Shown here one piece after another: positions 14,084 to 49,079 of a stretch of 64,000 nucleotides of DNA. Positions within the stretch are counted from its first letter, which is position 1. Each line of letters opens with the position of its first letter. The stretch comes from Selaginella tamariscina (taxonomy: Eukaryota > Streptophyta > Lycopodiopsida > Selaginellales > Selaginellaceae): contig PUQB01000377.1 of assembly GCA_003024785.1 (NCBI GenBank), positions 29,172-93,171 of the forward strand. The letters run 5' to 3'. Position numbers and translations under genes: made by a program. The notes under the pieces are model-generated. The model made no database searches. It had not been told where the DNA came from and was given only the letters and a program-made list of their open reading frames with translations.

Positions 14084-16873
14084 CATCTAGTTTTTGTGTA
14101 TCGTCTCTTCTTTGTTTGGTTTTACCCGTACTCGTTTAGCCTGTGTTACTGCATACGTTTCTGTTGAGGGTAATTCTGTATCTTCTTCCCATTTGCACTC
14201 GTGATTTTGCTCTTCATGGTCATCCTCTGGATCATTTTCTTGTTGAACTTCAATTCTCCATGTTGTTGGTTCTATGGGTGATGTTCCGATGTTAAATTCG
14301 CGTTGTGGACACTCTGGTGAATAATGTCCCAGCTCTCCACACGTGTAGCATCAAACATTGTTGAGTCTATTGCATTCAGTGGAATAGTGCCTTTCTCTCC
14401 ACATTTGAAGCATGTCACATTTGGATTCAGACCTCGTAATGCTGGTGGAGGTGGTATTGGTGGCAATAAAGGGGTCCCGTTTGTGCTGGGGCTGGTAATA
14501 GAGATTGTCCCCTCGCGGTATCTCTGTATTATTGTCTTGTCAATAAAATGCTCTGAATTCGCGGGGAAATCACCTTCCATTACCATTTCTTCGTTCTCCA
14601 TTATATGATCTTTGTGGATAATCATATGGGGTTGGCATTCCGAGATTGTGGATAGTCATATGGGTTCGCATTCCTGGTGTTGTCCCATCTGGGTCGTGGT
14701 GGTGGGTAGCCCTTAGTGCGTCCAATCATTGGTTGGGGTTTATATCCCGCACTTCGACATTGCTTTGCTTCATTTCCACACATTTGACACTTGGGTACTT
14801 TACATTCAGAAGCATTATGTCCTTCATTCTTGCATGTTATACAAAATATTACTTTGGATCTTGCCCATATCTTGTTCTCCTTTCAATATTGCCTTCTTAG
14901 TTCTCGTTCATCGTCATCTACGTATCTCGGAGGTATCAGTATTTCAATTTGTTTAGCTTCTTTGATTGCATCTCTTAGATCATGCGGTTTTATCAGTTGT
15001 ACTTGGAGCTGTAAATTGTCCCGTAGTCCGTTGATATACCTTTTCCTTGCCAATTTATCATTAACATCTCCCACCTCGCAGCGGTTGTGTATCCTCCAAA
15101 ATCTTCGCATGTAATCTTTCACCACCTCCATAGGACCTTGTCGTATTTCCTGTAATTGTACTGTCGGGTCTCGTTTGCGATATTTGCGTACATAGTAATT
15201 CCTGAACAGTGCAAGTAGTGTATCGTACTTGTCGATTGTGATGGCATTTTTGTAATACCAATCGCTAGCATCTCCCTTCAATGTAAATGGAAATATTCAG
15301 AACTTCTCGTATTCATCCTTGATTTTGTCAGCTTCACACGCCTTCTCAAATTGCTGTATATGACGATTCGTATCCTTGTTCTCTAGACCTGAAAAGGTAG
15401 ATGGTATAACTTTCCCCGTAATTGTTAGTGTTCCCATTTCGTCAGGTGCTTAATTGCCAACAGATCCCAGTTTCCTCGTGTTGGTACGTGTTTTTCGTGA
15501 TCGTAACTTTCCTAATTGTTGTCCTCTTCCTCCATAACCTCATCGTACTTTGTTTGCTGTTGCTCTTCTCGTCGAGCTTCAGTTTGCTCCTTCGCTCCTT
15601 CCTTCTCTGTTCTTCACGTTCCTCAAATTTTTTTGGGTCTCTATTACTGCTTGTCGTCGTAAGTATCGCTCCTTGCTCTCTCTTTGTTGTCTCTGCCTTA
15701 TCTCTTCATATCGTTGATGTTCTACAAGAATACGTTGGTAATCATCCATTCACTTACTACTAGATGCAGCAGATCCATTCTCATGCTATCTTTGTTGAGC
15801 GCTCTTTCGTCTCTGTGATAGTTGTCCCAATTGTATTAAGTACTCACTTCTGAGCCTATGAAAAGCCTCAAATTTCTTCTTCCGCCGTAATTTCTCTTCA
15901 AACTCCAACACTTCTTCGGGTATCGATCTACCCATCCTGGTACATTCTACAACACATTGTCAGTTACCTACTAATACGACCATCCCTCCGTGGTTGCCAT
16001 ATGCTAAACTGAGAAAATCCTACAGACTAAAATGTAGCAGTGGTCACACCGACGATAACCCGTATTAAGGGTCTATCGAAATAAAGAATAGGTCAGACTT
16101 CAGAAGGTCAAGAAAGGGTAAGGATGGCAAGGTTTGTAGTAGGTAGCAGTACTGCAGATCCATCACAAAACTGAGAAAAGAATAGTATACATCAGAACAG
16201 TAAGATAAGCAAGAGATAGTTGTATTGAGAGTGAAAAGAAACTCCGCACATGGCACATAGTACAACATTACAGTATACTTGGGATCCCGTTCTAGTTCTA
16301 ATATGGTCTATCTATACCCGTACTCTTGGTCCTGTACTAGCAGTTATAGTAATTACCTCTTAGCCTTATCCATTCAGTTACTGTAACTCCTTATCTTTAT
16401 CCGGGTATGCCGTACTCCGCCTCAAACAGTGTATTGAATTTGCCCATGAAATAAAACACATATAGGATCCTTCTACATGTCTAACTACGATCCTAACACA
16501 TTGAATGCCAGTCCCAATATATTTACATTTGATGAATCAAACCTAATGGCTCGCCTACCATTAAACCCTATCTTGAGGGGTTTAGGGACTTAAGGGTTAG
16601 GTAAACCCTAAGGGTGTTTCTAACTATATTTGATATGTAGAACTTATTAGAATCAACAAAAATCTAATATAAACATGAAAAATAAAGGAAAGTTTTTATA
16701 AGGTAAGTTTTGCCTTCACTTAGAGTTTTTTGAGATACTTAATAATAACAAATTGAATCATTTATAAGCACTAGGTGTTATTTCTCCTTATATTCAGAGA
16801 TTCGACAACATAATTCAAAGTATTAACAGTCAACTTTTAAAAATAAAAAATAATCATGGTAAAAACTATGACA
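14084..16873 (-). mobile_element. Ty3/gypsy LTR-retrotransposon fragment (LTR plus gag), left arm
   Basis: Fossil element read on the minus strand: one LTR at 15,958-16,873 (about 916 bp, starts TGTCATAG and ends CTGACA), then a gag region beginning at 15,935 that carries a Retrotrans_gag-type core (about 14,880-15,300) and CCHC-like zinc knuckles (about 14,380-14,850). No protease, reverse transcriptase or integrase is present and there is no second LTR, so it is truncated at 14,084, and the gag is broken in several places. The mirrored copy ends at the same point, so truncation predates the inverted duplication. Confidence 0.85.
15958..16873 (-). repeat. LTR of the gypsy fragment (left arm)
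   Basis: Bounded by TGTCATAG and CTGACA read on the minus strand, which form the short terminal inverted repeat typical of LTRs. It is related in its first 300 bp to the two solo LTRs at 27,360-28,339 and 29,595-31,358. Small open frames inside it (for example 16,065-16,268) are not genes. Confidence 0.75.
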
Positions 16874-17299
16874 TTGATGAAAAAACTCAAACTAAGGGCA
16901 TCTTAAGGGGAGATACCCTTGGGTGCAAGTAACTTGACTAATGTACTCTAAACAATCGGTTATACGCATATCAAATATTTCATAAAGTTGTTTGTGTGTT
17001 CGTTAAATCAAAACCAATTGTATATGTGTTCCTTCCATAATCTCTTTTATGTTTTATATTTTACTTTAATAAGGGGATCTGCTTCTTTCAAATTAATTAT
17101 ATCTCTCTTTTTCAAAATTTATAATTTATTAAAATTTCAAATTTAATAAACTGATTTTGATAAGTACGTTACTATAGTTTGAATTTTAAAAAGAAAATTA
17201 AAATTATTAAGATTTTACTCACTGTTTTATGCCATAAATAGTCAAAATTTATCCAACTTCTTCGATGAAGCAAACTCATGAGGCCAAATAAATAAACTT

Positions 17300-24530: not shown

Positions 24531-25092
24531 CCCTTGATGATGAAGTAAAATATAAAATATAAAAGAGATTCTGAAAGAACACATATGCAATTAGTTTTGA
24601 TTTCAATGAACTCACAAACAATTTATAAAATATTGATATACGTATAACCGATTGTTACCTTATACTAGTACATTACGTCTTCAAACCGTATTTGACTCCA
24701 CACATTAACCTTTTAAGGTAAGGTTCAAGGTCATTAATGTTCTAGTACATATATGTAAATTAAAAAAAATAAGGGTTTTATTATATAAATTAAGTAAAAT
24801 AAATGTAGGACAAGTATGCTAGAGACTAAGAAGTTTTATTCTTCGACCCAAAAAGCTTTAACTTATATCATTAAATTACACTTTTGTGTTGCATTAACTT
24901 TTCAAGACCTTAAATTTAAATTTAAATAATAAACTTATTGGTATTATACACTATTTTATTTAAGTATGTCACATGTAAAAAATTAATTAATTCTTTTTGT
25001 TTGGTCTTATTTAAACACACATTATGCAAGTCTAGAGTTAAGGCTTTGCACCAAACCTCTTCTTCCACAACAAGTTATACGAACAATACTCT
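24531..25092 (-). repeat. 560-bp micro-inversion in the spacer between R3 and R4
   Basis: This block reads in the same direction as 7,500-8,095 of the left arm, whereas the sequence on both sides of it (22,000-24,530 and 25,093-25,672) reads in the opposite direction. In the right arm the matching block at 51,705-52,350 is in normal order with its flanks. A local inversion in this unit is the simplest explanation. It carries only one copy of the 34-bp minisatellite unit. Confidence 0.8.
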
Positions 25093-25319
25093 GCTTTCAA
25101 AATAATTATATTTCTCTTTTTACAAATTTATATTTTATTAAACTGATTTTGATAAATCATTCGTATAGTTTAAAGTTTAGAAAGAAAATTAAAATTATTA
25201 AGATTTTACTCACTGTTTTATGCATAAATAGTCTAAATTTATGTTTTCGATTGCGCCAACTTCCTTGATGATGGCAACCCATGAGGGGCCAAATCTATAA
25301 ATAAATAAACATTTTTATT

Positions 25320-25605
25320 TGAAGATAAAAATTGAATACTATCGTAATTCCCACTAAAAGCTGCCAATGAATGCTTCATTTTTATCGTACTTCCACAGAT
25401 CTTAACAAAACTATGGTCATAAGTGAAAGTATTAAACTCATTCCCACTTCTTCATAAGAACAAATTATCATAGGTTTTACAGTTAAACAATGCTTCAGTC
25501 ATGGCAATCTCTATCATTTATTTCAACGATAGCATTCACACAGCTAAGAAAATACAGTAAAACAATTGTGCATAGCATGCCTTCATACTTGGAGACACTA
25601 GCCAT
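25320..25605 (-). pseudogene. Head-to-head partner remnant, separated from type A by the MULE
   Basis: Same frame as 7,005-7,285, read leftward from ATG at 25,605. It looks broken, with about three breaks. The MULE inserted 68 bp upstream of it, inside the region formerly shared with type A. Confidence 0.45.
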
Positions 25606-25722
25606 GTAGAATTAACCAAAACAGCTTGAGAACTTACGAGTGTGATTATCTGTAATAAATCAGTGGAAATTGGAGTGCCGCCATTTTGGAGGCTTGGGGC
25701 CCATGAGGCCTGGGCTCAAATA

Positions 25723-25743
25723 TTCTAGAATTCTAGAATATTC
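25723..25743. promoter_or_regulatory. GAAnnTTC array (heat-shock-element-like), left MULE end
   Basis: TTCtaGAA followed directly by TTCtaGAAtaTTC, giving one perfect three-unit heat-shock element plus a further pair. It lies 50 bp inside the left terminus and matches the arrangement at the right end. Confidence 0.65.
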
Positions 25744-27359
25744 TTTTGGGTACCAGTATTGGCCTCAGTCAGCAAAATTGTTTTTCTAGTAAAACCGTTG
25801 TATTTATACCTTATTCTTTTTTATATTAGCTTAATTTATTACTCAATACACACTAGCTCTTCATCTTAAGCAAAGTGCAGTTCTCGAACCACCAGCTAGG
25901 CTTGGATGTGGAGGTGTCTGAGTAAGTATTTTCTCTGGTCGAATGTTCTTTGCGAGCTTGTTTGTTGCCAACCTAGAGAGTTCGAAACTCTTCTTAGTTC
26001 CTATAATATTCCTTCTAAGTTCGACGGCAGCTAACAACGATGATCCGGTTCCGGAACCAATATCCCAAACAAGGTCGCCAGGTCTACTGAGATGCGACTA
26101 AAAGCTGCATGAGTCGAACACTCTTCAGTCGAATCATCATGTACAAACTTCCATTAGATAGACAAAGCAAAGTACTTCATTACCAAGCCTTTTGAAAATG
26201 GTCGGGTATTGACGAGGATCGTGTTTGTCAATGCCAAGGGTTTGGCTTCTTCGACTTCTTCTTAGAGCTTTGCAGCACCAAGAGAACCAACAAGTTATCT
26301 TGCCACATAGACCAAGTTAAACTTGAACATGAATAGCTAGCATACCTTAATTTTGTCACGGTATCCCTAGCCTCATGCACGGTAGATGTTGTTAAGTCCC
26401 TGCAACCTCCATGTTGATTACCACAACCGCCTGAATTATTGCCAAAACAGAAGAAGAAGTCACGAAGACGACCATGAAACCACTCGCTGCCAAGTGCATT
26501 CCACTGAACTGCAAGGCCTCCTCAAACTTCACTGGATCTAGCTGCACAATGTCCTTGTTGATGCTAGCACCTCCATATACAAGCTCATTGGGCAAGTTGA
26601 GGATGATGAGGTTGAAGCCGTATTCACCTGCCACTTCCTAGAACAGCGTTTGTGACTCAGGCGTATGTAGTTTGTCAACATGTTGTCAGAGCTTGGTGTA
26701 CACCTTTGTCTGGGAAGCACCCGGCTTGAAGAAAGACATGCTCATGAGTGTAAAGTCGATTGCCAGCGGAGGTGCCGTAGAAGAGCTTGGTCCCACTCTC
26801 GATCCCTTTGCAGGTGTAGATGTCTTTTGCACCATCTTCTTCATCTTGTTCTTCTTGATAGCCTCTACTTTGTCCGGCTCCCAAACAATCAATGGAAGAT
26901 CATTGGCATGCACATCGAACAGTGAGCTCTCTCAAGTTGGTGCTGCTGCGACAAACAGTCAAGCCAAAATGGAACATGCTTGTGTTCGAATGTTGTTAGA
27001 GCTCCTCTGCTCTTCGACCACATGTGAGGCTCGTTTGTATGATCTGTCCACAGCTTCATCGTCTGAGACGGTGCCATTTTCTTCACTAGTATGAACCTGC
27101 AACACAAAGTTAGTTAGTAGTAATGCTGGAATGAAAGCTTACCTCCATATCATCTGACGCGCAAACTCCTCATGCTCCAAAAACTCATTCGGCTCCATCG
27201 AATAAGTGAACCGTATGCAGTCATGGAAGGGCTGAAAGACCAGGCACTTGCTCCAAGTTCGCACTCGTCAAACTACTCATGAAGTTGACATTCGTTCCAA
27301 TTCTTCACCATCCTCTTGTAGTCCTTTAAAGGATCTGAATGGCTTTCTCACGCACAACT

Positions 27360-28339
27360 TGTCATATTTTTACTATGACTCAACCCTTTACTTTGGGGTT
27401 TGACTGTTGTTACCTACTGGATTATGTGACGAACCCTAGATGTAGAAGAAACAAGCCCGCATAGTGCACTTGGGTATTTAGTGATGGTCCGGCCAGGTGT
27501 CGTTAGGTATTTGCAAGAAACTCTAGGCGAAGCTGCACTTCCATTTAGAGAACCCTCCCCCGTTTTGACGTTCCAGGTTAGGGTTTTCGCAAATTATAGC
27601 TTGTCAAAATAAGGGTTAGGACACCCCTAGGGTTGACCTAACCCTAGGGTTGCCCTAACCTACGTCCTAAACCCCCCCCTAGGGGTTAGGTTTAGGATTA
27701 GGTTAGGACAACCATTTTCTCTAAGGGCTGGCATTTCCGTGCCAGCCCACTTACTCACTTAGGTAAACAGGGGGGGGGGGGGGGGGTTCGTCACATAAAT
27801 AAGGTAGAGTATATGTAGTGAGGCTTCCTGGGTTCAAGAGAGAGCTTGTTAACCTCCTACCGGTGCAAGCTAAGCTTGTGTCGTCAAGGTGCAACCCTCT
27901 GTTGTGCCGCCCAAACTTCCACACGACAGGGGTACAACCCACCCTAGGGTTAGACTATCCTTATCGTTGGCAGGATCTTGCCTTTGAGATAGGGGCACGT
28001 CACTTCCAAGGAGTTAGTCAGATTCTTTGGTCCAAAAACCTGCCCGCAAGCTCAAAGACATTGCTCGAGTTCACATTCCGCAAAAACTAGTGGTTGAGGC
28101 CTTGCTCCGGCCGCCTCAACCATGCCAAGCTAGGAACGACACCTAAAGCTCGGCTAGTCCGTGTATCCTGATTCACAAGGTGAGTCTCGTTCGTGGCTTA
28201 GTCAGTTAGGGGTTTGAGTTCCTAAAGCTTGGGTTCCTAATACGGGTTATTTACCAGATTCCATGGGGTTTCCAGAGAGGGGATTCCAGGGTTGGCACTT
28301 GGCAAGCCGCCTTTGTGGCACCAGGTAAAAACTCTGACA
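27360..28339 (+). mobile_element. Solo LTR 1 (gypsy-related), 980 bp
   Basis: Starts TGTCATA and ends CTGACA, with near-matching 5-bp flanks CAACT and CAACC. It looks like a whole solo LTR with no internal region. It is related to the LTR of the gag fragments. It lies within the methyltransferase-like gene, in opposite orientation to solo LTR 2. It contains CCTAGGGTT-rich stretches and a G17 run at 27,770-27,786. Open frames inside (for example 27,818-28,090) are not genes. Confidence 0.85.
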
Positions 28340-29594
28340 CAACCTTCCAATACAAGTCCAAGGTGAATCACTTGATCCACTCTTTGTCCTGCATGCCTGG
28401 TAGCCTAAGTGTCTGTTATTCTGCCTTGGATTCGAGATGAGTGAGCTTGTTCAAGTATCGGAGTCGCAACATGTTTGATATCTTTGCCTATGACATTGCA
28501 TACAGCTTCTCAATGCCCATCCAACAACATTGTTTATGAGAGATGTTCGTCACCTTCTAGAACCACTCCTCCCCCAGGGTCTATGATAGAGAGGAACTTG
28601 TGCATACGCTTGTCATGCTTTTTGTACACTAGCTGCTTCAGGTTCAGTTCAAGCTGTGGATTGCCTTTAGCACTGGTGACTACTCTGTTGAGATCATCGT
28701 CGATCTCGTTCTGCACATAGAATAAGTTAAAAATTTCTTTCTTATCAATCAAACCAAAGGTTACCTTGAAAAGAATCTTTGCGCAGATCAGGTTCGGAAG
28801 AGGATGCCAAGTCACCTTTCCTGATGCACTCTCTTCCACTTCTGCACCTCAAGACGATCAACCTTCATGAGCAACTCAAGGATTTTCTGAGTTCCTTCAG
28901 TACTAGTGCAACCGCCTTTACAGCGAGGAGAATATGTGATAGTGTTGTTTCCATAGATGTTGTTGAAGATCTGTTCATTGAAACTGTAAATCCAGACTCT
29001 CAACGAAAAGAAAAGAAAATACTCACATGTTTATCGATTGGAACATCGAAACCAGTTAACGATTGTCGAGGTTCTCTGTGGAGATGAAACTCGATCGAAT
29101 GTGAATAGCCCATCGTTGGTTGTCCTTTGTATCCTCTCGGTAGAGCTTTTGCAAAGCCTGTAGCTTATGGTTCCCATCCCAACAGCTGAACTTCCGGTTT
29201 GACAGCCTCGAAGCCCACTATTTGTATTCCGGTTGAGTAAGAGCTTGCTCAAAAGATTAGTGCTACTCGTATTGAACTGTGTCGCTCCAATAGCTCCTCA
29301 GTAGTGAGTAGATCTTCGATGGACAGAATGAACAAGGCCATGTTGCATAGTTAATCAGCCTTCTTCAACAATGACACCAGCATGTCCAAGTCCCCTAGGT
29401 TTACTCGTCGATCCACCTCGTTTGAATGCATTCTACAGATTAGCACATCATGAGGATCACCAAGTCCCTTGATTGTAATTTTGTCTAGCAGGTTCGCTGA
29501 GCTCTCCAAATGCAGGCTAGCCGATACGCTATATAACTCCTTCGGCTCCTTATCGCTCTTCGCCTTTCTTGCCTTTTGGATCAGCTTCCCACGG

Positions 29595-31358
29595 TGTTAG
29601 AGTTTTAACCAAAGGGCCAACACGTGGCAACACGTGGCTGCATTGGCCATTTGGCGTCATCACCCTGTGTGAGCAACGCTAAGTTTCCCAGAACAACCCC
29701 AACGACCCCTAGGGTTAGACTCTAATGCCCAAGTGGACAGGAGACTTAGGGTTTAGCCTAAGTCTCCCTAGAATGTATGCCCCCAACCCTTGAGGGATAA
29801 CCCTAGTTGACTTAGGGTTTAGCCTAAGTCTCCCTAGAGTGTCTACCCCCAAAACCCTTGAGGGATAACCCTAGTTGACTTAGGGTCTTGCCCTAGAAGA
29901 CCTAGACAGGCTCATGCCCTAACCCCCATCAAGGAGACGTGTGTTCCACACATACCCCTGACAGAGCTAAGGCATCGTCACTTACCCCTTGAGGAATCAC
30001 CCTCATCCGGGAGTACAACCCCTTTAGGGCACAAGGGGTACCCTGAACCACGACTAACCCCTAAGGGTTTGAGTGGCCAAGTTATACCCTAGACCTAGGC
30101 TAGTACTTAGTGAGGACACGAGTGTGCGCCGTAGGCGGACACGAGTGTTCTGCTAAGCAAACTCCCTAAGGCTAGGTTTGGGATAACCCTAAGCACATGA
30201 CCTTGCGAGTGCCTCACGAAAGGGCTCCTGCTAACATGTTTAGGTTGTTCAACCCTTGAATTCCAAGGAGAACACTCCCCTAGCCAAGTGTGCCAAAGCA
30301 CACCTAGTTATGAGACCTAACCTCCCTTGAGCGGATGCCCAAGGCTTAGCACCCTAGTGCAAGCACAAGCATGTCTGTTTGCTAGAGTATCCAACCCCTT
30401 GGCGACAAGCCCATGACATAACCCCAAAGGGCGTGCCTCAGGCGTTGTACCATGTGACGTTTAGCCCAGTGTCACATCTCCATGTGACACTGCCTTCCCC
30501 GATGTGGGCTATCATGCCATAGCCCTTAGATTCAAGAGTTGCACCAAGTGCCACAAACGTGGCTCCTAAATGCCAACTCTAGAACCCCTCAATACCCTCA
30601 GACTGTAAGGAAACCTGTCAATCAAGAACCCACACCCACAGTTGGACAAGGACACGAACGTGCCTGTTAGCTGTGAGTGTTGCTCTAGCTTTTGATGGAG
30701 GAGGAGGCTGGAGACAAGCCTCAACCTCTGCCTCTTGGAACGTGCATTCCGACAAGACCTCCCAGGCATGGATTCGCCAACGTTAAGGGTAAGCTACCCC
30801 GAAGGTGGGACGTACCCCTGGCATCTGGAAGTTAGGGCGGCACAACAGAGGGTTGTGCCTTGACGACACAAGCTAGAGCTTGCACCGGGAGAAGAGTAAC
30901 GAGCTCAGTCATGAACCCAGGAACCCTCACTCCTATATACTACCTTATTTATGTGACAGAGCCCCCCCCCCCTGTTTTCCTGTTTACATAAGTGGGCTAG
31001 CACTGAAATCTCATTCCCAGAGGGAACATACTTGGTGAGTTATCCATCGACCCCTAAACCCTAACCTGTCAAACCTGGGGGTATTTCTAAGCATATCCGA
31101 CATGCCGAACTCACCGGAACTAGCCATTAATCCAACCGGGACACGGAAAACGAGGGTAAGAGTTTTCTAGAAGGTAAGTGCTACCTTCGCTTAGAGTTTC
31201 TCGAGATATCTAAGGACAGCCGGCCGGACTACCCCTAAACACCTAAGTGCACTAAGCGGGGCTGTTTCTCACTACATCTAGGGCTTGTCAACATAGTACA
31301 GTAGGTAACAACAGTCAACGTCCAAAGTAAAGAGGAGTCATAGTAAAAAACTATGACA
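29595..31358 (-). mobile_element. Solo LTR 2 (gypsy-related), 1.76 kb
   Basis: Read on the minus strand, it starts TGTCATAG and ends CTAACA. It is flanked by a perfect 5-bp target duplication CACGG (29,590-29,594 and 31,359-31,363). Its first ~1 kb is the same family as solo LTR 1 in inverted orientation. It also contains two tandem copies of a ~68-bp CTTAGGGTTTAGCC block (29,745-29,885) and a C11 run (30,962-30,972). It looks like a whole solo LTR. Coding similarity of the methyltransferase-like gene resumes directly on both sides of the target duplication. Confidence 0.9.
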
Positions 31359-31765
31359 CACGGCCTCTTTTTGTTGACTGCCTCCTCCAAGTTGTCCTCG
31401 GTAAAAGAAGAAAGAGCTTTAACTACCTCTATCATTTGCACTTGCTCTTTCAGGATTGCAACCTCAGCGGATGAAGAAGGCAATTGTGACGAGCTCTCCA
31501 AGAAATCTGTGATGATTGATGGAGGCTGCTCCTGCTCAACTGGTACTTGAGGTTGAGTCACTGGAGGATCCTCCTTTGCTATATTAGTGGTTCTCCTCTC
31601 TTTCCTCGCTTGTGCTTCGATATCCTCTTCTCTTCTGTGGCTCTTCTTCAGGCACAATCTCTTATAGACGTTTTGAAGCTTTCACCATTTTGTAAACTCT
31701 GGAAAGCAAAACACAAGTCAATTTATTTGGAGACAAAAGGAAAACAAAAACCAAAGAATGACTAA

Positions 31766-32650
31766 CCTTGTGGCTGCCGACTCATGCTAGATGGTGCCGA
31801 CCTCTCAGTCAGCATAGAAAAATAGATGAGCAAAACCTGCCAACTGAGACCAGTTGGTTGCGACCCTCTCAGACGGCACAAATGAGATGATGTATGAAGT
31901 ATGCTGACTAAGCCAGGATGGTGCCGTCTCTCTCAGATGGCACAAATGGAAGACCTTTAACTTTGGCATAAAAAAAACAAAACAATGTGATATGGATACT
32001 TGAGCTGCAAATCAAAAAATAAAGAAATTGAACAAACCTTGTGGCTGCTGACTGAGCAAGATGGTGCCGTCTCTCTCAGGACAGCACAAATGGAACACCC
32101 TTTAACTCTGGCATCAAAAAACAAAACAATGTGATATGGATACTTGAGCTGCAAATCAAAAATAAAGAAATTGAACAAACCTTGTGGCTGCTGACTGAGC
32201 AAGATGGTGCCGTCTCTCTCAGACAGCACAAATGGGAACACCCTTTAACTTTGGCATCAAAAAAAAAAAAAACATTGTGATATGGATACTTGAGCGCAAA
32301 TCAAAAAATAAAGAAATTGAATAAACCTTGTGGCTATTGACTGAGCAAGATGGTGCCGTCTCTCTCAAATGGCACAAATGGGAACACCCTTTAACTCTGG
32401 CATAAAAAAAAAACATTGTGATATGGATACTTGAGCCGCAAATCAAAAATAAAGAAATTGAACAAACCTTGTGGCTGCCGACTAAGCCAGGATGGTGCCG
32501 TCTCTCTCAGATGGTAAAAATGAAAAGACCCTTTAACTCTAACATAAAAAAAAAACACGTTGTGATATGGATACTTGAGCCACAAATTAAAGAAAAAAAA
32601 ATTGAACAAACCTGGTGGCTGCCGACTGAGCAGGATGGTGCCGACAATCT
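31766..32650. repeat. 143-bp tandem array between the two MULE genes
   Basis: About six units, starting near 31,766 (partial), 32,038, 32,180, 32,326, 32,467 and 32,611, spaced 141-146 bp. Each unit carries GTGCCGTCT-ctctc-AGACGGCAC or a near variant, which can fold as a 9-bp stem with a 5-base loop, followed by a poly-A run and GTGATATGGATACTTGAG. The array lies between the divergent transposase and methyltransferase-like genes, where promoters would be expected. In the right-arm copy only about four units remain. Confidence 0.88.
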
Positions 32651-33131
32651 AAATCAACATAGAAATCTCGATTGGTTTACTTGGGTGCTACACGAATCAA
32701 CTCGAAATGGATGGCGCCACTCCTCTTAGGCCCCTTGGAGGAGATTTCAAATATCAAATCTAAGATAGAAAAAACCCTAGCCGCAATGGAAACAGTAAAC
32801 CCTATCTACCAAAAAACCTTAGCTACAATGAAAACAGTAAACCCTACAGAATAAATGTGGCATTAAAATTTAGGGTTATTATTAAAATATGTGAATAATT
32901 GGTAAAGGTAAAGATATTTTATATCATAAAGGAAATAATTAAATTACATCGATGATACTAGAGAGGATAGCATTAAGAACACTGTGAGCTGGATAGTGTA
33001 GAATTAATTATATACAAAAGTGTGTTCACGTTTATTATCAACGATTATAATTTTTTTGGCAAACGAGAGTGTGTTTAATCTTTTGCTTTGCTTTGCTTTC
33101 TTAAACCACTGAGCTTTCTCCTTGCGTTGTC

Positions 33132-36100
33132 ATGGCCAGAGTTACATATGAAGGCATTAACAAAGATTTCCCAATCGATGAAGATGGAAATGCTTTTGTG
33201 CTTGAACATGATCTTCACTTTGCTTTCACCATTCCTTGTTGGTTCAGTATACATGTGGTTCAATTGATGTCAGTTTGTACGAGTTCTAGAGAAGATGTGG
33301 AGTTGTTACCAGAAGGCAATGCATCAAACCAGTTTGTCTTTTACACATTGTGTCCGGCAAAAGGGCCCGTTGTTCAGGTTGCGAACAAAGGAGCATGAGA
33401 AATCCATGCTGGTCTATCTTCTAAGAGCAGACAAATGTAGGATAGGGAAGGATCTCATTGGTTCGTCTGAAGTTAAATGAGTCTCTGAACTACTGGAGAT
33501 ATACAATGGAAATATCATTTACGAACTTCCTCCAAAGAAAGAAAGCACAGAGAAGTACTTGGGATGAATCGCAAGGATGGCTGCTACCATTGGACACACC
33601 CGAGCACAACACACTGGCATGTTCCGGCGCGAGTCAGTTGAAGTTCATGTGTTGGACATCTCAAATGCATCAATCTACTTGCCCCTACTTGGCTTTTGAG
33701 AAGAAAGCAAATGAATGTACTTCAAGGGTGCTGTGGAGAAGGCAAAGACAACTAAGTCAGGCAAAGTAAAAGGCATGAAATGTAAGCATTGTGAGAGGAG
33801 CCATTGCTAGTGCACACTTGTCCGGCTTATGTGTACTACATTTTACAGACGACATTTCTTTTACAAGGTTGTTCATTCACAGAGGTGTTCATCAGCATCT
33901 AGTCAGCCCCTCAGTGTCAGCTTCAAAGTTCAGAGTGCCAGAGCTAGTGTCAGCAACGTGGTAAAGAGCAGTCCGCGAACCAATCAACGAGTGATTGAGT
34001 TTCAAGCTGCACATGAACTCATCTTTGAAGAACTTTTCAAGGAAGAAGGAAAGTCTCTACACTGGTTTATTCTCAAAACTTGAACCTCTTACAAACCATC
34101 AAAAGGTATTTTTCTTTAGATCTCACACTGACGTGACCTTTTCTTTAGGACTCGGGACTAGATTACACAATCAAGACAGAAGGAGACACTTTAGAGAGGG
34201 TTATGAGGGTCTTCTAGAGCTGAAAACAAAGTTGCCATCACGTCATACATGTTCCAAGGATGGAACTACATGGTGCTAATGAGCAGCCTTTGATCTTCAA
34301 AAATGTAGTTGAGGGACTACGTTCAGGAGTTGACTACATCAGAAGGTGTCAAAGTGGAGGAGACCTTCATGATCAATGGGTTGTTCTGGACCACACACAC
34401 CGTATACCAAACTGGGCGACAATTGGAATACACCTTTATGACTCATTGTAAGTTGTAGAACTCCTTATAACACTTTCTAATCTTTGTTATCTAATGCTCT
34501 CTTACAGTGTTAGATCCATGGTCACTATAGCTTACGTAGATATGTGCTGCGAAGATAATGTTGTAGTGCTGAAGTTCTTAAACACAATGTTAGAGGTTTG
34601 TAAGAAATAGGGTTTGGAGAATGTAAACTTTGCTGGTTTCATGTCGAATGAGGCTGGAGCCATATGGATAGCCTTGCGCCAAGTATTCAACAACGGAGCA
34701 AAGATGAAAGGAAGGGAAAGAAGCTGTTTGTTTCACTTTATGCAATCCATGCGTCAGGTGATAAAGAAATGAATCGCAGAAGAACACTGCGAAGAACACA
34801 TGAAGCTTGCTTGTGCCTGGCCTGCAGCACTGAATGAATAATCTAAAAAAGAACAACTAGCAATTCTGGAGTCTTTTTGGGAAGGACGAGCGTCAAACAT
34901 TCGTGCTTTGAAGACATGGCTGTCTTGGTGGATCAGGCATGAGGACCACATCTCATGATAGAACTGGAAGACATGATAGAAGAAGGACTTGCGAGCGTTC
35001 CAACTACAAACAATGCTGAAGTGATTCACGTGAGAGCAAAAAGAGCAAGATTGGCCAAAAGAATACCACTGCTAGAGGTGACAATGTTAGACCTCACCGA
35101 TGCAGTTCTGTAGAATGCGAAGGTGAAAGCGGCAATAGAAGGGAGGTATACAGGTCCTTTGAAGGAAACTCTGTTGAAACGAGTGCAACGCAAACTCTCT
35201 GAGGGGAAAAGTGTATCTCCATCAACAATTATCAATTTGGTGGAAGACAAGGAACACTTGACCAGCCCGGAGTTCACGAGTACCACTAACGTTCGAGTGT
35301 AAACTGTTAAGAGAATAGTCACAGGAACAGAACATCTGATGCTCGACATTCACATAGACATGATGTAGAGTACACAGAGCGGGTGGTCCAAAACAATAGG
35401 AGAAAGAGGTTAAGGTTTGAAGAGGTTTTGGAGAGAGAGATTGCATGGCCATCAAACGAATTGGATCATCCAGTAAGGTTAAGTGTTTGGGGATGAATCA
35501 TGAAGGAACTGCTTTGTGTGGAAAACCAATCAGTTATCCAAGCAGAGTGCCAGCACCAGGATTCTACAGAAAACGAATGTACAATGATGCCTTGGGGAAT
35601 GAGGAGTATGTACAACAAATGATGTGATTCTACCCAAGAAATTCAGGGTGTTTCACGTGGCCAAACGGCAAAATTCTTAGTCAAGAATTCTAGCACCACC
35701 AACGGTTTGGCCTGTGCTCAAGGAAATGAAGCTGATAAGTGAGGAGGTCAGAGAACTATAGGATGCAGGCTTTGTTCTGGAAGGTTTATAGGGGATGGAG
35801 GAAGAGTAGATGAGGGTCAGAAGGACAAAACACCATCACCACCATGTGGAGTGGATCTACAACAATTCCACCTTTCGAAGGATGTATGGTCCAGACTCCA
35901 ACAAGAATGCTTAAGGAACAAGAGAAGAATTTCCACAAGGCCAAGACATTTTTAGGTCGAGTGAGAAATGTTGAAGTGAAAACTAGAGGACAGAAGGAGG
36001 CTTTCATTGTGTCGACAGAAAATGACTCTGCAAAGGTGATTATTAGTACTTATTTACATGTAGTTGTTCTACCTTTCAGAAGAGCAAAAGTTGAGCCTAT

Positions 36101-36170
36101 GTGTACACATGTACTTGTTACAGCTGTGTGCTTGGCTTGAACCTGGACATCACATACTTTCTACAAAGGC
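33132..36170 (+). pseudogene. Mutator-like transposase (WRKY-GCM1/MULE/SWIM), central copy, decayed
   Basis: Collinear with the right-arm copy at 57,956-61,004. The start is ATG 33,132 (MARVTYEGINKDF). Recognisable parts are the LDHTHR first catalytic Asp region (about 34,390), the phase-conserved intron (34,450-34,507), the second Asp region here changed to SNEAGA, the C-x2-H block near 34,735, and the remains of the SWIM finger near 36,060-36,110. At least seven nonsense changes relative to the right-arm copy are C-to-T or G-to-A: CAG to TAG at 35,111, 35,759 and 35,789; CAA to TAA at 34,839 and 35,300; TGG to TGA at 34,770 and 35,624. The loss of the second catalytic Asp and the many stops make it inactive. 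Confidence 0.87.
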
Positions 36171-36408
36171 GATCGCTCAATGAGATGGAGGTCCACCATT
36201 TGCTAGTGAATTGCAGCATAATTCATGACCCACCAATGCTACAAGGATAAATAGTATATATAAATGCTTTGTTTGAATAGTAACTTATTGAATTTTTTTA
36301 TAAATTATTCAAAAAAAATTCTAAAAATTTAAATGATTTATTTGTTAGTCGGCAAATATTAAGCAAGTCGGCATATTAAAAAAACTTATATCCAAAAAAT
36401 ATTCTTAA

Positions 36409-36421
36409 GAATATTCTAGAA
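36409..36421. promoter_or_regulatory. Three-unit heat-shock-element-like array, right MULE end
   Basis: GAAtaTTCtaGAA, a perfect alternating three-unit element, within a GAATAT-rich tract (36,395-36,465) about 90 bp inside the right terminus. Confidence 0.6.
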
Positions 36422-36669
36422 TATACCTAGAATATCCGCGAATATACTAGAATATTTCGAAGCCTCCTGAGCCGGAGCCTCCTTTTCGCGGAGACCCCGG
36501 AAATTGCTATGTATTAACATTGTTATATATGCTAGATGCACTAAGGCCTATTACAAAAAAAACAAACGTGCTGTGTGCAACCCGACGACCGCACCACTCT
36601 TAGAAAGCTTCTAAGCAGCATAGTTATTTGCTACGACCACACAGGGACAATAGTGTCCGTAAAACCACA

Positions 36670-36707
36670 ATAAATATCGATACAGATAGTAGTATGATAT
36701 CAAGAAA
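36670..36707 (+). promoter_or_regulatory. TATA-like box and leader of type A (R4)
   Basis: ATAAATA at 36,671-36,677 in the conserved AATAAATATCGATAC block, about 31 bp before the start codon. The upstream 100 bp (ACGTGCTGTGTGCAACCCGA to CCACACAGGGACAA) is shared by all A and B copies. Confidence 0.5.
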
Positions 36708-37220
36708 ATGAGCTTCAAACTTTACATTTTCGCTTTGGCATGGTTTTTTACTTGCGTAATTTATACAGTAAAAGCCCCACGTCCTGGCACTCTACTCTGC
36801 TATGACAACGGAAGAAGAAGCACTAATGTAAATGATTTATGTGATTGTTCTGCCCTGGTTATTAACGACATTACAACTGATCGCACTCCACGTCAGTACA
36901 TTCGTCGAAGAGGGGTCATATCAATGTTTGTTCGTGTCACTCAGTATCACGAGGGAGCTGGTGGAAGATATGATCCAAATGATTCTACGTTTGCAGATTT
37001 CTGGAGTGCAGTTAACAATCTGTGGGACGAATGTCTTGCATATAATTATCCTGGAGGACAAGTTATCTTTGACGATGGTTCTATGCGTGTTGAAATCGTA
37101 CGTCTGAGAGACGAGTTGATCAAGTACCTCAACAACAACAACAACACGTCTAGTAACCTGATCAAGGACGCAAGGAATAAGACATATAGTGCTGGGATAA
37201 CGGGAACATGCTCATATTAA
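36708..37220 (+). CDS. Small secreted cysteine-containing protein, type A (KP4/Ecp2-like fold, tentative)
   Basis: A whole 170-residue frame with no intron. Signal peptide at residues 1-23, then a mature protein with cysteines at 31, 45, 47, 109 and 168, the DLCDCSALVINDI block, a GVISMFVRV run, the helix-like FADFWSAVNNLWDEC and GGQVIFDDG. An Asn-rich NNNNN stretch with glycosylation sites precedes the basic C-terminus. It differs from the 17,838 copy by substitutions such as PRPGT/ARPST and an in-frame change in Asn repeat length. AATAAA signals occur at about 37,240 and 37,281. Its upstream region was cut by the MULE about 200 bp before the start, so the partner gene is displaced, but the proximal promoter block is intact. 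The protein family call is by eye. Confidence 0.6.
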   Translation: MSFKLYIFALAWFFTCVIYTVKAPRPGTLLCYDNGRRSTNVNDLCDCSALVINDITTDRTPRQYIRRRGVISMFVRVTQYHEGAGGRYDPNDSTFADFWSAVNNLWDECLAYNYPGGQVIFDDGSMRVEIVRLRDELIKYLNNNNNTSSNLIKDARNKTYSAGITGTCSY

Positions 37221-38199
37221 TGGATCAAGGAAGCAAAGAATAAAACATATTATGTATAATTTGTTTTCTGTCTTCCGGCAGAATAAAATCTTATATTAAT
37301 TCAGGCATTAATTTGTGTAATTTGAGTAGTTGGTGTGTTCAGTTAAAATTTCCTTTATAATATTATGCTATTATATTAAAACAACTCGATAGCACTTAAC
37401 TTTTGCATGACACACATATATGTTAGAGAATATATATATATATATACCGGAGGCAACAGCTGAGAAATATTCTCGATTTTGAGAAGGATTTGGTGTTAGA
37501 TAGAGCGTACATTTTTCTTCACTCACAATCTAGTAATTATATGTTCTGTTTCTAATATTCTACGTAATAAGCGATAATATCAATTTTTCCAATAAAATTA
37601 CAGATGCAAAAATGTTAAAATTTTATTATATAGACTCTTGCATTTAGCCTAGTATATGCATAGACTACTGATGACATATACATAAATATAGTATAGAAAA
37701 ATCTAAACATAGGTACTTTTTGAACAATAGAATTCTCTCCCTTTCTAATAATACAAAAAAACATATATAATATTCCAAACATAAGTCGTAGTGCAACACT
37801 AGATTACACATACGTGTGTGTGTACTTATGGCTAGAGGAACTCGACATTTTCTATTATGTATACGTTTTGACACACACCCACAGATTAAGTAAATAAATG
37901 GTTACTTGCACATAAACTTGAAGTGAATGGCTCACTCAGAACTTACTTGTAAATAACACATCATAAACTACAAATAAATTTATTAGAGGCTTTTGAATTT
38001 ATGGTAATTAAAAGTTTATTAGATGTTAATCATTAGATCAACTACAAAACAAACAATTCTGGACTTAACACAGGCGTGCATACATACACATAATGTGTGT
38101 ATACACACACACACACACAAAAAAAAAAAAAAAAACACGAACCTTTGAGAAACCATTTCGTAAGTCCTCAACGACAAACCCAGAGGAACGCAATCTACA

Positions 38200-42821: not shown

Positions 42822-42885
42822 TTAGTCAAGTTACTTGCACCAAGGGTATCTCCTTAAGATGCCCTTAGTTGAGTTTTTTCATCAA

Positions 42886-43799
42886 TGCCATAGTTTTTAC
42901 CATGATTATTTTTTATTTTTAAAAGTTGAACTGTTAATACTTTGAATTATGTTGTTGAATCTCTGAATATAAGGAGAAATAACACCTAGTGCTTATAAAT
43001 GATTCAGTTTGTTATTATTAAGTATCTCAAAAAACTCTAAGTGAAGGCAAAACTTACCTTATAAAACTTTCCCTTTATTTTTCATGTTTATATTAGATTT
43101 TTGGTTGATTCTAATAAGTTCTACATATCAAATATAGTTAGAAACACCCTTAGGGTTTACCTAACCCTTAAGTCCCTAAACCCTCAAGATAGGGTTTAAT
43201 GGTAGGCGAGCCATTAGGTTTGATTCATCAAATGTAAATATATTGGGACTGGCATTCAATGTGTTAGGATCGTAGTTAGACATGTAGAAGGATCCTAGAT
43301 GTGTTTTATTTCATGGGCAAATTCAATACACTGTTTGAGGCGGAGTACGGCATACCCGGATAAAGATAAGGAGTTACAGTAACTGAATGGATAAGGCTAA
43401 GAGGTAATTACTATAACTGCTAGTACAGGACCAAGAGTACGGGTATAGATAGACCAGATTAGGACTAGAACGGGATCCCGAGTATACTGTAATGTTGTAC
43501 TATGTGCCATGTGCGGAGTTTCTTTTCACTCTCAATACAACTATCTCTTGCTTATCTTACTGTTCTGATGTATACTATTCTTTTCTCAGTTTTGTGATGG
43601 ATCTGCAGTACTGCTACCTACTACAAACCTTGCCATCCTTACCCTTTCTTGACCTTCTGAAGTCTGACCTGTTCTTTATTTCGATAGACCCTTAATACGG
43701 GTTGTCGGTGTGACCACTGCTACATTTTAGTCTGTAGGATTTTCTCTGTTTAGCATATGGCAACCACGGAGGGATGGTCGTATTAGTAGGTAACTGACA
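42886..43799 (+). repeat. LTR of the gypsy fragment (right arm)
   Basis: Same LTR as 15,958-16,873. The small open frame at 43,492-43,695 is conserved only because the LTR is. Confidence 0.75.
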
Positions 43800-45659
43800 A
43801 TGTGTTTGTAGAATGTACTAGGATGGGTAGATCGATACCCGAAGAAGTGTTGGAGTTTGAAGAGAAATTACGGCAGAAGAAGAAATTTGAGGCTTTTCAT
43901 AGGCTCAGAAGTGAGTACTTAATACAATCGGGACAACTATCACAGAGACGAAAGAGCGCTCAACAAAGATAGCATGAGAATGGATCTGCTGCATCTAGTA
44001 GTAAGTGAATGGATGATTACCAACGTATTCTTGTAGAACATCAACGATATGAAGAGATAAGGCAGAGACAACAAAGAGAGAGCAAGGAGCGATACTTACG
44101 ACGACAAGCAGTAATAGAGACCCATAAAAAAATTGAGGAAGAAGTGAAGAACAAAGAAGGAAGGAGCGAAGGAGCAAACTGAAGCTCGACGAGAAGAGCA
44201 ACAGCAAACAAAGTACGATGAGGTTATGGAGGAAGAGGACAACAATTAGGAAAGTTACGATCACGAAAAACACGTACCAACACGAGGAAACTGGGATCTG
44301 TTGGCAATTGAAGCACCTTGACGAAATGGGAACACTAACAATTACGGGGAAAGTTATACCATCTACCTTTTCAGGTCTAGAGAACAAGGATACGAATCTC
44401 ATATACAGCAATTTGAGAAGGCGTGTGAAGCTGACAAAATCAAGGATGAATACGAGAAGTTCTGAATATTTCCATTTACATTGAAGGGAGATGCTAGTGA
44501 TTGGTATTACAAAAATGCCATCACAATCGACAAGTACGATACACTACTTGCACTGTTCAGGAATTACTATGTACGCAATATCGCAAACGAGACCCGACAG
44601 TACAATTACAGGAAATACGACAAGGTCCTATGGAGGTGGTGAAAGATTACATGCGAAGATTTTGGAGGATACACAACCGCTGCGAGGTGGGAGATGTTAA
44701 TGATAAATTGGCAAGGAAAAGGTATATCAACGGACTACGGGACAATTTACAGCTCCAAGTACAACTGATAAAACCGCATGATCTAAGAGATGCAATCAAA
44801 GAAGCTAAACAAATTGAAATACTGATACCTCCGAGATACGTAGATGACGATGAACGAGAACTAAGAAGGCAATATTGAAAGGAGAACGAGATATGGGCAA
44901 GATCCAAAGTAATATTTTTGTATAACATGCAAGAATGAAGGACATAATGCTTCTGAATGTAAAGTACCCAAGTGTCAAATGTGTGGAAATGAAGCAAAGC
45001 AATGTCGAAGTGCGGGATATAAACCCCAACCAATGATTGGACGCACTAAGGGCTACCCACCACCACGACCCAGATGGGACACACCAGGAATGCGAACCCA
45101 TATGACTATCCCACAATCTCGGAATGCAACCCCATATGATTATCCACAAAGATCATATAATGGAGAACGAAGAAATGGCAATGGAAGGTGATTTCCCCGC
45201 GAATTCAGAGCATTTTATTGACAAGACAATAATACAGAGATACCCGCGAGGGGGACAATCTCTATTACCAGCCCCACCAAACGGGACCCCTTTATTGCCA
45301 CCAATACCACCTCCACCAGCATTACGAGGTCTAAATCCAAATGTGACATGCTTCAAATGTGGAGAGAAAGGCACTATTCCACTGAATGCAATAGACTCAA
45401 CAATGTTTGATGCTACCGTGTGGAGAGCTGGACATTATCACCAGAGTGTCCACAACGCGAATTTAACATCGGAACATCACCCATAGAACCAACAACATGG
45501 AGAATTGAAGTTCAACAAGAAAATGATCCAGAGGATGACATGAAGAGCAAAATCACGAGTGCAAATGGGAAGAAGATACAGAATTACCCTCAACAGAAAC
45601 GTATGCAGTAACAGGCTAAACGAGTACGGGTAAACCAAACAAAGAAGAGACGATACACA
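42886..45659 (+). mobile_element. Ty3/gypsy LTR-retrotransposon fragment (LTR plus gag), right arm
   Basis: Mirror of 14,084-16,873. LTR at 42,886-43,799 (914 bp, starts TGCCATAG and ends CTGACA), gag from ATG 43,823 with a charged N-terminus (MGRSIPEEVLEFEEK), a Retrotrans_gag core (about 44,480-44,880) and zinc-knuckle motifs such as CKNEGHNASEC and CFKCGEKG. No pol region and no second LTR. The gag is broken in several places. The element ends abruptly in the downstream flank of a lost type A copy. No primer-binding site could be assigned with confidence. Confidence 0.87.
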
Positions 45660-46935
45660 AACTAGATGGAGTGTACATTTTTCTTCACTCAAATCTAGTA
45701 ATTATATGTTCTGTTTCTAAATTCTCTACGTAATAAGCGTTAATATTAATTTTTCCAATAAAGTTACAGATGCAAAAATGTTAAAATTTTATTATATAGA
45801 CTCTTGCATTTTATAGTACATAGACTATTGATGACATATACATAAATATAGTATAGAAAATCTAAACAGAGGTACTTTTTGAACAATAGAATTCTCTCCC
45901 TTACTAATAATACAAAAAAACATATACAATATTCCAAACATAAGACGTAGTGCAACACTAGATTACACATACATGTGTGTGTGTGTACTTATGGCTAGAG
46001 GAACTCAACATTTTCTATTATGTATACGTTTTGACACACACCCACAGATTAAGTAAATAAATGGTTACTTGCACATAAACTTGAAGTGAATGGCTCACTC
46101 GAACTTGTAAATAAACATCATAAACTACAAATAAATTTAATAGAGGCTTTTGAATTTATGGTAATTAAAAGTTTATTAGATGTTAATCATTAGATCAACT
46201 ACAAAACAAACAATTCTGGACTTAACACAGGCGTGCATACATACACATAATGTGTGTATACACACACACACAAAAAAAAAAAAAAAAAACACGAACCTTT
46301 GAGAAACCATTTCGTAAGTCCTCAACGGCAAACCCAGAGGAACGCAATCTACACCGTAGATGTGTTGGAGGATGCTGTCGATTGAAACATCTAAATGATG
46401 ATTTTAATTCCCTTAACATCGCACAATATCAATAACTATATTACTTAAATAGAAATTCAATTTTCAATATACAACATTATTTTATCTGAACACACACACT
46501 CATATAATATACAAAATCAAACATGTTCAATTCTACACATATCACTTATTTCAACCGTAGCATTCACAAAGCTAATATAATATAGCAAAACAAATGTGCA
46601 TTGCAGGCTAAGATACTTGAGACACTAGCCATGTACACTAACCAAAACAAGTTGAGAAACTTACGAGTGTGATTAGCTTATACATTTCCAGAATTTATAT
46701 AGAGGAAATATTAATAGTGTTAAACAATGCGATGCCAATGTTAATAAAAATTAACTTATTTCATTATTCTAAATGATATCAACTGTTGCACATGTTGTCC
46801 TGTACGTTCGTAGCAAATAACTATGCTATAAGTCAACCTTAGAAGATCGGGTTGCACACAGCACGTTTGTTTTTTTTTTGTACTAGATGATATTCTATAA
46901 ATATCGATACAGATAGTAATATGAGACTAAGCAAG

Positions 46936-47403
46936 ATGAGCTTCAAACTTTACAGTTTCGCATTGTCATGGTTTTTTACTTGTGTAATTTATACAGTAAA
47001 AGCAGCACGATAAGATGCTATTACAACGGAAGAAGAGCACTAATGTAAATGATTTATGTGATTGTTCTGCCCTGGTTATTAACGACATTACAACTGATCG
47101 CCGTCCAGGTCAGTACACTCGTCGAAGAGGGCCCATATCAATGTATGTTCGTGTCACTGAGTACCACGAGGGAGTTGGTGGAAGATATGATCCAAATGAT
47201 TCCACGTTTGCAGATTTCTGGGACGCAGTCAACAATGTGGCCTTTCATATGAATTATCCTATAGGAGAAGTTACCTTCGACGATGGTTCTATGCGTGTAC
47301 GTCGAGAAATGTGTTGATCGAGTACCTCAACAACAGCAACAACACGTCTATAACCTGAATCAAGGACGCAAGATAAGACATAACAGGAACATGCTCATAT
47401 TAA
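46936..47403 (+). pseudogene. Type B small secreted-protein gene, fossil
   Basis: Mirror of 12,355-12,803. It looks broken, with about three or four breaks. A TATAAATA box is at about 46,895. The central block is recognisable. Confidence 0.6.
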
Positions 47404-47720
47404 TAAATCAAGGATGCAAAGAATAAAACATACGGAAGAACATATGTGATTTGTTTGAAGTCCTCCTAGATGTCAATTAATTTTTTTTCTTTCCACCACA
47501 GTAGAACTTGTGATGGAAGATGAATAAGATTCTTATAACTCAGGCATAGAAAAGAGGATAAAATCTCCTTTATAATATTATAGTACATATTAACGCAACT
47601 CACATACAATAGCCTTTCGTTAACTACTTACGCACTCAAGTAGTTTTGCATGACACACATACACAGTGCATGTGTGCCTGCATGAACTATAGCTTACTAT
47701 TATTGTCACCCTTTATGTTA

Positions 47721-47760
47721 GAATATATATAATATATATATATATATATATAATATATAT

Positions 47761-47818
<58 letters not shown>
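47721..47818. repeat. Long TA microsatellite
   Basis: About 98 bp of TA with occasional AATA interruptions, downstream of type B. It is the longest simple repeat in the window. Confidence 0.92.
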
Positions 47819-47819
<1 letters not shown>

Positions 47820-49079
47820 TTTTAAGGTAAAAAATATAAATAGCTGAGAGCTATTCTCGACTTTTAGATAGATCGACGGACTCTAGTCAGACAACATTTC
47901 TTTGACTCACATTAATAACTTATCTAATAATTATATGTTCTGTTCTAATATTCTAATAATATCATAAGTTTTCTATAAAGTTACAGATGCAAAAATGTAT
48001 TAATTTTATATATACAGTAATCTTCTAACCTCGTATATACATAGATTACTGTTGATAAATATAGAAAAATCTATATATAATTCGACATAGGTATTTTTTA
48101 AATGTTTTCCACCAAACATTAGTATGTGCATTACATATAAACATGCACATACATGTATACATGTACATTCTTACACACACACACACACACACACACATTT
48201 ATATTTAAAGTATACGGTCTGAGAGGAGCCATCCGATAAAACAGTTCATTCAATATCCAATACCAATCCAAATAGTACCATCAGTTTACAATCTCTACTA
48301 TGTATACGTTAGGGAGAGGTGATAAAAATCCCCTTTTGTCTGCCATTCTTGTGTATATGTTCATTTAAAAGATACATTGACTTGTACAGATAAACACACA
48401 CACACACATTAAGTACCAATGTTCACATCAAATAAACGGTTACTTGCACATAAACTTGAAGGGAATGTCTCACTTAGAATTTACTTGCGTGCATGAATAA
48501 CTACAAATAAATTTAGTAAGAGGCTTTTAGATTTATGGTAATTAAAAGTTCATTAGATGGTAATCAGCAGAAACTACGAAACAAAACAGGCGTGATTACA
48601 TACACATAATGTGTGTATATGCACACACGCACACACACACGAACCTTTGAGAAACCATTTTGTAAGTCCTCAATGACGGACAAGATCTACACCGTAGATA
48701 TGTTGGAGGATGTTCACGCAGGCTGTCGATTGAAACATCAACAATAGTCCATATTACCCGTTCAAAATATATCTCTCGGGTTCGAACTGTATCTGCAATT
48801 CTACATCAACTACCAACCAAGTAACACATAACAGATGCATTATGTATACAATATACTAATAAATAAATAATAAATAAATAAAAAATATATATATCAAAAA
48901 CAGAGCACTGGCTACCGCAGACAAACATTCTTTAGTGCTCCTGCCTCAGTAGAGGAGCGACTCATAATACCAAACGGTAAAATGACAAAGTATCAAGTTA
49001 ATTTATAAATTGAAACTTCCAGAATAATCATATATTACACTATAAATTTTATATATATATATATATATATTATAAAAAA

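Follow-up and report, generated by a model that had tools for sequence, protein, structure and literature searches.

A MULE-like transposon of Selaginella tamariscina with a divergent methyltransferase-type gene and a palindrome concentrated near its ends

Results

A two-gene element and its unoccupied site

The 64,000 nucleotides analyzed here (the window; Selaginella tamariscina, contig PUQB01000377.1, positions 29,172 to 93,171) contain a transposon of 10,826 bp, inserted at 25673-36498 on the plus strand, in which a transposase gene and a second gene, gene 2, are read in opposite directions. We place it in a high-copy family, F1, that is very likely a MULE-like (Mutator-like element) lineage with a methyltransferase-type gene as its standard second gene. 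The insertion is real. It is bounded by an 8-bp target-site duplication, GGAAATTG, at 25665-25672 and 36499-36506, and its two ends are related to each other (local alignment score 51, against a maximum of 34 in 200 shuffles). Furthermore, the window itself holds an unoccupied paralogous site: 25092-25672 corresponds to 52356-52935 and 36498-37950 to 52927-54400, and a single target copy, GGGAATTG, lies near 52927-52935 with one mismatch to GGAAATTG. A preliminary description of this DNA, made from the letters alone, had reported a single 10.8-kb insertion with a perfect 8-bp duplication and similar ends, which these results bear out.

The transposase gene lies at 33132-36250 on the plus strand, its limits judged by eye against open copies. 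Gene 2 occupies the minus strand and begins with an N-terminal exon (MVKASKRL..., 31364-31688), followed by a putative ParB/DndB-like domain (CWDGNHK, 29026-29593; 70-86% identical to L032, a largely open copy, and called from a DndB match of an F2 homologue described below). A middle part at 28340-28743 (83-88% to L032 by tblastn) resumes at 27142-27366, on the far side of a nested insertion, A. The motif-IV exon region (26395-27149; LIILNLP, or LIILDLPN in open copies) and the motif-I part (25864-26097; DIGSGTGSS) complete the gene. Between the two genes stands a tandem array of 5.2 copies of a 144-bp unit (31902-32643), a stretch in which matches to other F1 copies vary. The window copy is dead. 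Two nested insertions, together with stops and frameshifts, have left both genes in pieces, including the transposase, the ParB/DndB-like domain and the motif-IV region. The preliminary description had mentioned neither this state nor the possible ParB/DndB-like domain.

Gene 2 recurs with the transposase across F1

We searched the 300.7-Mb genome for relatives. The left 1,128 bp of the element matched in all 40 places scored, the window included (the best 40 of 581 candidates). Among 20 copies picked by their gene-2 end (L009-L028), the transposase half was matched in 18, only partially in L024 and not at all in L018 and L023. These copies are not fully independent, some being a single insertion met again in duplicated loci: L011, L015 and L018 share one left flank, L013 and L022 share another, and L009 has the duplication of the window. 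Both ends could be set in 12 copies, which are 7.4-8.1 kb long apart from L021 at 9.2 kb, and of 17 copies tested, 10 have target duplications of 8-9 bp, at nine distinct sites (L011 and L015 having the same one).

Approached from the transposase end (right 1.2 kb, best 40 of 793 candidates scored), gene 2 was present in at least 23 of 40 copies: the window, one copy from the left-end search, 13 paired by eye with places matching a methyltransferase exon (6.0-8.7 kb apart, in fitting orientation) and eight found with blind probes. These 50-bp probes, placed at the predicted position, met gene 2 in the correct orientation in 8 of 10 copies, which is the unbiased figure, since the 13 pairings were drawn from places already known to match gene 2. 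This methyltransferase exon, of 90 amino acids, was 100% identical at 150 of 150 scored places (the best 150 of 1,125 candidates), and because of this identity the family appears to have amplified recently.

Two further families keep the same arrangement

In two diverged families, F2 and F3, the transposase and gene 2 are likewise read in opposite directions, as in F1. An F2 element (L029) spans the right edge of the window, with its transposase on the minus strand and gene 2 on the plus strand; its right-end palindromes (five copies of GAATATTC, see below) and part of the transposase lie at 61375-63883 on the minus strand, and the remainder, with gene 2, lies outside the window. The F2 and F1 transposases are about 42% identical over their longer pieces. 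F3 (L034) is closer, at 56-78% to F1 in the transposase, depending on the piece, and 49-71% in gene 2. Locus L031, in the mirrored flank on the left side of the window, was considered as a third family, but inspection showed it to be another copy of F2.

Between F1 and F3, the proportion of synonymous differences (pS) in gene-2 exons is 0.78-0.96, which is saturated, while that of nonsynonymous differences (pN) is 0.21-0.33. Because of this gap, purifying selection has evidently acted on gene 2, at any rate during the divergence of F1 and F3. The transposase gives similar values (pS 0.77-0.85, pN 0.13-0.29), and comparison of F1 or F3 with F2 gives weaker evidence (pS 0.69-0.78, pN 0.44-0.63).

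These families bear on a question that the preliminary description had left undecided, namely whether gene 2 is a standard second gene or a captured one, and for which it had proposed looking for other copies with both genes. Pairing from either end, and the blind probes in particular, favor a standard gene. Capture by the window copy alone is ruled out by the other copies and by the homologues in F2 and F3. A methyltransferase taken up once, by this copy or by the family, and carried as a passenger in the style of a Pack-MULE has nothing for it beyond its bacterial-like sequence; against it stand three diverged families with one arrangement under constraint and the frequency of gene 2 among transposase-end copies. 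We regard it as highly improbable, and a single capture as already largely refuted.

The transposase is MULE-like

MULE transposases combine a DDE domain with a C(2)H motif and a T-N-x(2)-E context, and MULEs, among which are the VANDAL transposons, make target-site duplications of 8-11 bp. By inspection, the transposases of F1 to F3 contain LDHT, FMSDE, RSCxFH and TN..E, and the duplications found, at 8-9 bp, are in the MULE range. Profile searches gave less. The joined F2 exons matched the MULE transposase family PF10551 at 13.9 bits (E 0.074, positions 2-96 of 99), below the cut-off of 27.6, and the joined exons of F1 and F3 did not match it. Genome-wide there were 148 PF10551 matches, none of them, among the matches listed, on the contig of the window (C701). 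Other MULEs are present in this genome, with 16 places matching PF10551 at 95 bits.

The preliminary description had called a WRKY-GCM1/SWIM transposase divergent to gene 2. The plus-strand position and divergent orientation hold; a SWIM-like stretch in a relative (L012) scored 15.8 bits, under the cut-off of 19.6, and no WRKY or GCM family match was found among the pieces scanned. Based on the length of the target duplication, the motifs above and the one sub-threshold PF10551 match, we therefore describe the element as MULE-like rather than as a MULE. An AlphaFold model of the F2 transposase fragment in the window was discarded (mean predicted local distance difference test, pLDDT, 40.4).

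Gene 2 joins a methyltransferase-type domain to a possible ParB/DndB-like domain

In L032, gene 2 can be followed on the minus strand as a ParB/DndB-like stretch (3572-2826), a middle stretch (2546-1917), a motif-IV stretch (1924-998) and a motif-I stretch (884-498); these are reading stretches and not splice-defined exons. The motif-I stretch matches the N6_N4_Mtase family PF01555 at 38.6 bits in F1 and 27.0 in F2 (cut-off 26.7), and that of F1 also matches solved adenine methyltransferases such as MboIIA (E 2.6e-5). The F3 motif-I exon found 277 phage records at E <=0.01, the best among the matches listed being phage methyltransferases at 8e-7. Motif I reads DIGSGTGSS in F1 and F3 and DLTVGTGAS in F2, and motif IV, which stands before it, reads LIILDLPN in F1, LVIFDLPN in F3 and LVVIDPPT in F2. 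Motif IV ahead of motif I is the beta order, and the canonical form of motif IV is (D/N/S)PP(Y/F/W).

The order noted in the preliminary description, LIILNLP (within 26637-26395) and then DIGSGTGSS (within 26097-25864) on the minus strand, is confirmed. Its methyltransferase call holds for the motif-I half, and the residues of motif IV depart from the canonical form. The motif-I piece of the window itself scored 21.9 bits against PF01555, below the cut-off. Gene 2 would accordingly encode a methyltransferase-type domain, as judged from its motif-I half, and the protein may methylate DNA.

It could also be a degenerate methyltransferase that serves only as a DNA-binding accessory, shielding the ends or displacing silencing factors with no transfer of methyl groups. 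The DLPN of F1 and F3 and the DPPT of F2, which lack the usual aromatic residue, would fit such a protein, as would the failure of Pfam to align the motif-IV half. The good preservation of motif I in all three families argues against it, and so does the fact that, when F1 is compared with F3, no part of gene 2 is better conserved than the motif-I exon (71% identity). We consider such a binding-only protein somewhat unlikely.

The N-terminal stretch of gene 2 contains WDGNHR in all three families. DndB models from three collections, which are not independent of one another, each matched one of the three members: Pfam at E 0.00099 (F2, below the cut-off), NCBIfam at 0.019 and PADLOC at 0.0011 (F2). 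In PHROGs, the ParB-like exon matched one unnamed family at E 0.0079 and another at E 0.071. Scans of viral and prokaryotic contigs with two alignments (A1 and A3) turned up no confirmed relative, and nothing bacterial or viral was found to be closely related to the N-terminal domain. The DndB matches weakly support a ParB/DndB-like domain, which may have a ParB fold.

A palindrome lies near the ends of F1, F2 and F3 elements

For one element per family (L025 for F1), all 8-mers were ranked according to whether they occur in the terminal 250 bp. The palindrome GAATATTC came first, being present at six of six ends, with 18 terminal copies and none in the interior on either strand; the F1 ends had been set by target duplications, and those of F2 and F3 visually once the positions of the palindromes were known, though the palindromes lie outside both genes regardless. 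Across 12 F1 copies, there were 37 exact GAATATTC in the outer 200 bp per end (4,800 bp), none in 91,037 bp of interior and three in 23,191 bp of flanking sequence; it is present at the left end of all 12 copies and at the right end of nine. In the window copy, the palindrome is found at 25736-25743 at the left end and at 36409 at the right, within a subterminal array of AATATTCTAG units (36398-36456). All eight GAATATTC copies in the window lie at F1 or F2 ends (1.81 expected in shuffles), and the 43,078 bp of other sequence contain none (1.7 expected).

Across the genome, GAATATTC is strongly enriched: places with a pair of copies within 14 bp number 6,184, compared with 31 for the reversed pattern. 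Among the matches listed (contigs C1 and C2), about eight pairs of places, matched up by eye, are separated by 13-14.5 kb and would appear to be part of another large element. One such 13-kb element (C1:899073-912442; L038 and L039, termed F4) has GAATATTC pairs near both ends and an open reading frame (ORF) for a NIF/FCP1-like phosphatase (L038:663-1235, minus strand; PF03031, E 9.3e-11). A methyltransferase suspected in it by eye found no support: five pieces were compared with two profiles, and the best hhalign score (piece 2517-2870 against the motif-I profile) was 19.3 with a probability of 3.6%, where shuffling one other piece 100 times gave up to 18.8.

Because many of the pairs lie in another element in which no gene 2 was seen, GAATATTC is a candidate, not a proven, target of the gene-2 protein. 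It may instead belong to the transposase or to a host factor, with gene 2 acting elsewhere, for example on host chromatin. The pairs near both ends of the 13-kb element would agree with this; 4.9 kb of that element were read, however, leaving about 8 kb where gene 2 could sit, and GAATATTC is the best-ranked 8-mer at the six ends of one element from each of F1, F2 and F3 and is absent from the interiors of these elements. A palindrome unconnected with gene 2 thus seems unlikely to us.

Nested insertions and other features

Nested insertion A (27360-28339, plus strand, 980 bp) and nested insertion B (29595-31358, minus strand, 1,764 bp) both begin with TG and end with CA; A is flanked by a CAACT/CAACC duplication and B by CACGG on both sides. 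The two are in opposite orientation and 82% identical over 791 aligned positions. Among the 20 long copies (L009-L028), 19 are unoccupied at both insertion points and L018 does not extend to them, and A/B-related sequence also occurs outside the element in L010, L013 and L019. A and B are presumably solo long terminal repeats (LTRs) of one retrotransposon family.

Two loci on contig C659 share their history with the window. L009 (C659:248841-258840) is an F1 copy with the same GGAAATTG duplication and flank and no nested insertions. L002 (C659:265368 on) matches the window copy at 99% identity; it contains insertion A and ends short of B. L009, L002 and the window locus are duplicated loci or haplotypes of one insertion.

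The window also contains a second F1 copy consisting of the transposase half only (56924-61318, plus strand), for which no left end was seen and which is mirrored at 1-3020 in one arm of a 17-kb inverted duplication (1-16941 and 42822-59969, 97% identity). Blocks between the inverted arms recur in several copies, for example around small ORFs. One small ORF, at 36693-37220, encodes 175 amino acids and has a start that looks like a signal peptide by eye.

Elsewhere in the genome, an ORF resembling the RuBisCO large subunit (C1148:647533-648459, L035) possibly reflects plastid-to-nucleus transfer. Against the PDB it scored best with 9chz (990.7 bits), then 1wdd (967) and 1gk8 (946), which we take to be the rice and Chlamydomonas proteins; other groups reached at most 902, and 4f0h, presumably from a red alga, 574. 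This ranking places the genome in the green lineage, perhaps close to land plants.

Discussion

We propose that F1, F2 and F3 are two-gene units in which the transposase is accompanied by a divergent accessory protein that would join a ParB/DndB-like domain to a beta-order amino-methyltransferase domain. The ParB/DndB-like domain would bring the protein to the element's own ends, with the GAATATTC arrays as the candidate site, and the methyltransferase domain would mark the ends, or merely grip or occupy them. Such a mark might let the element escape silencing, or might license or regulate recognition of the ends by the transposase. We give this model, in which the accessory protein binds its own ends and marks or occupies them, a probability of about one half; it overlaps in part with the two alternatives raised above, a protein that only binds and a palindrome unrelated to gene 2.

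Several observations weigh against it. Gene 2 was missing, where sought, from 3 of the 40 transposase-end copies (two of the ten blind probes and the second, truncated copy in the window), which also tells against a standard gene, and 14 of the 40 have no call either way. When the window is compared with open copies of F1, changes are spread mostly evenly over the three codon positions (22/20/17 in the motif-IV exon and 37/39/30 in the transposase), although the middle exon has 11/3/14, and selection leaves no consistent trace; between F1 and F2, the ratio of nonsynonymous to synonymous rates (dN/dS), wherever dS was estimable, came to only 0.36-0.49. None of the three families has the canonical residues of motif IV, and even with the exons joined PF01555 aligns only at positions 164-220, its motif-I end. 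Of the three members, just one yielded the ParB/DndB match, which is weak; PDB searches with the ParB-like exon gave no ParB-like match, returning one coiled-coil match at E 0.42 and then none. For the palindrome, the F2 and F3 ends were placed with knowledge of it, exact GAATATTC is missing from the right end in 3 of 12 F1 copies, and the 4.9 kb read from one copy of the 13-kb element showed no significant homologue of gene 2 or the transposase (best tblastn E 0.059 and 0.071).

The preliminary description had suggested that the element might modify its own ends. As a hypothesis, modification by the element's own enzyme now has a candidate site. A more specific form, in which a ParB/DndB-like methyltransferase reads the GAATATTC arrays and deposits N6-methyladenine (6mA) or N4-methylcytosine (4mC), self-marking is common to several families and the larger palindrome-bearing element uses the mark in trans, strikes us as doubtful.

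A gene of this kind opposite a transposase is known from algal transposons. Sola1-1_Ec32, a 21.5-kb transposon of the brown alga Ectocarpus, carries a gene with ParB-like and N4C/N6A methyltransferase parts opposite its transposase (PMC12477816). Going by that description, it shares with our elements an accessory gene on the opposite strand, of ParB-like and amino-methyltransferase make-up, in a eukaryotic DNA transposon; the arrangement and the methyltransferase part are found in F1 to F3, whereas the ParB part is weak here. The present elements differ in their occurrence in a green-lineage genome, their 8-9 bp target duplications, their MULE-like transposase and their hundreds of candidate places, and the portions of the Ectocarpus account that we draw on do not mention a terminal palindrome (PMC12477816). 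It was the sole direct parallel found in a literature search that lay outside most subscription papers and preprints. In prokaryotes, fusions of ParB with N6_N4_Mtase domains, the same two-domain combination as in gene 2, are described as frequent in phages and prophages, and a DndB-like protein is counted in the ParB-CTPase fold (PMC12704722).

The closest functional parallel may be VANC of the Arabidopsis VANDAL elements, a transposon accessory protein that reads short motifs clustered in the non-coding DNA of its own element (YAGTATTAY for VANC21) and counters silencing (PMC5735166). The likeness is one of function. VANC causes loss of methylation (PMC5735166), whereas gene 2 has a methyltransferase-type domain and the candidate motif is a palindrome near the ends. 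Bacterial-type amino-methyltransferases acting on eukaryotic DNA have also been described in bdelloids (N4CMT; PMC8885841) and Marchantia (MpDN4MT1; PMC8566409), and resemble gene 2 by description; in the sections available to us, they are not described as transposon-borne.

As far as the literature searched extends, the MULE-like lineage, the presence of three families in one genome, the scale and the terminal palindrome are new. That eukaryotic transposons may use bacterial-type DNA marks of their own was raised as a possibility by the authors of the Ectocarpus study (PMC12477816). In the genome of S. tamariscina, this possibility can be set against a conserved gene, candidate places numbering in the hundreds and a single 8-bp candidate site that clusters at element ends.

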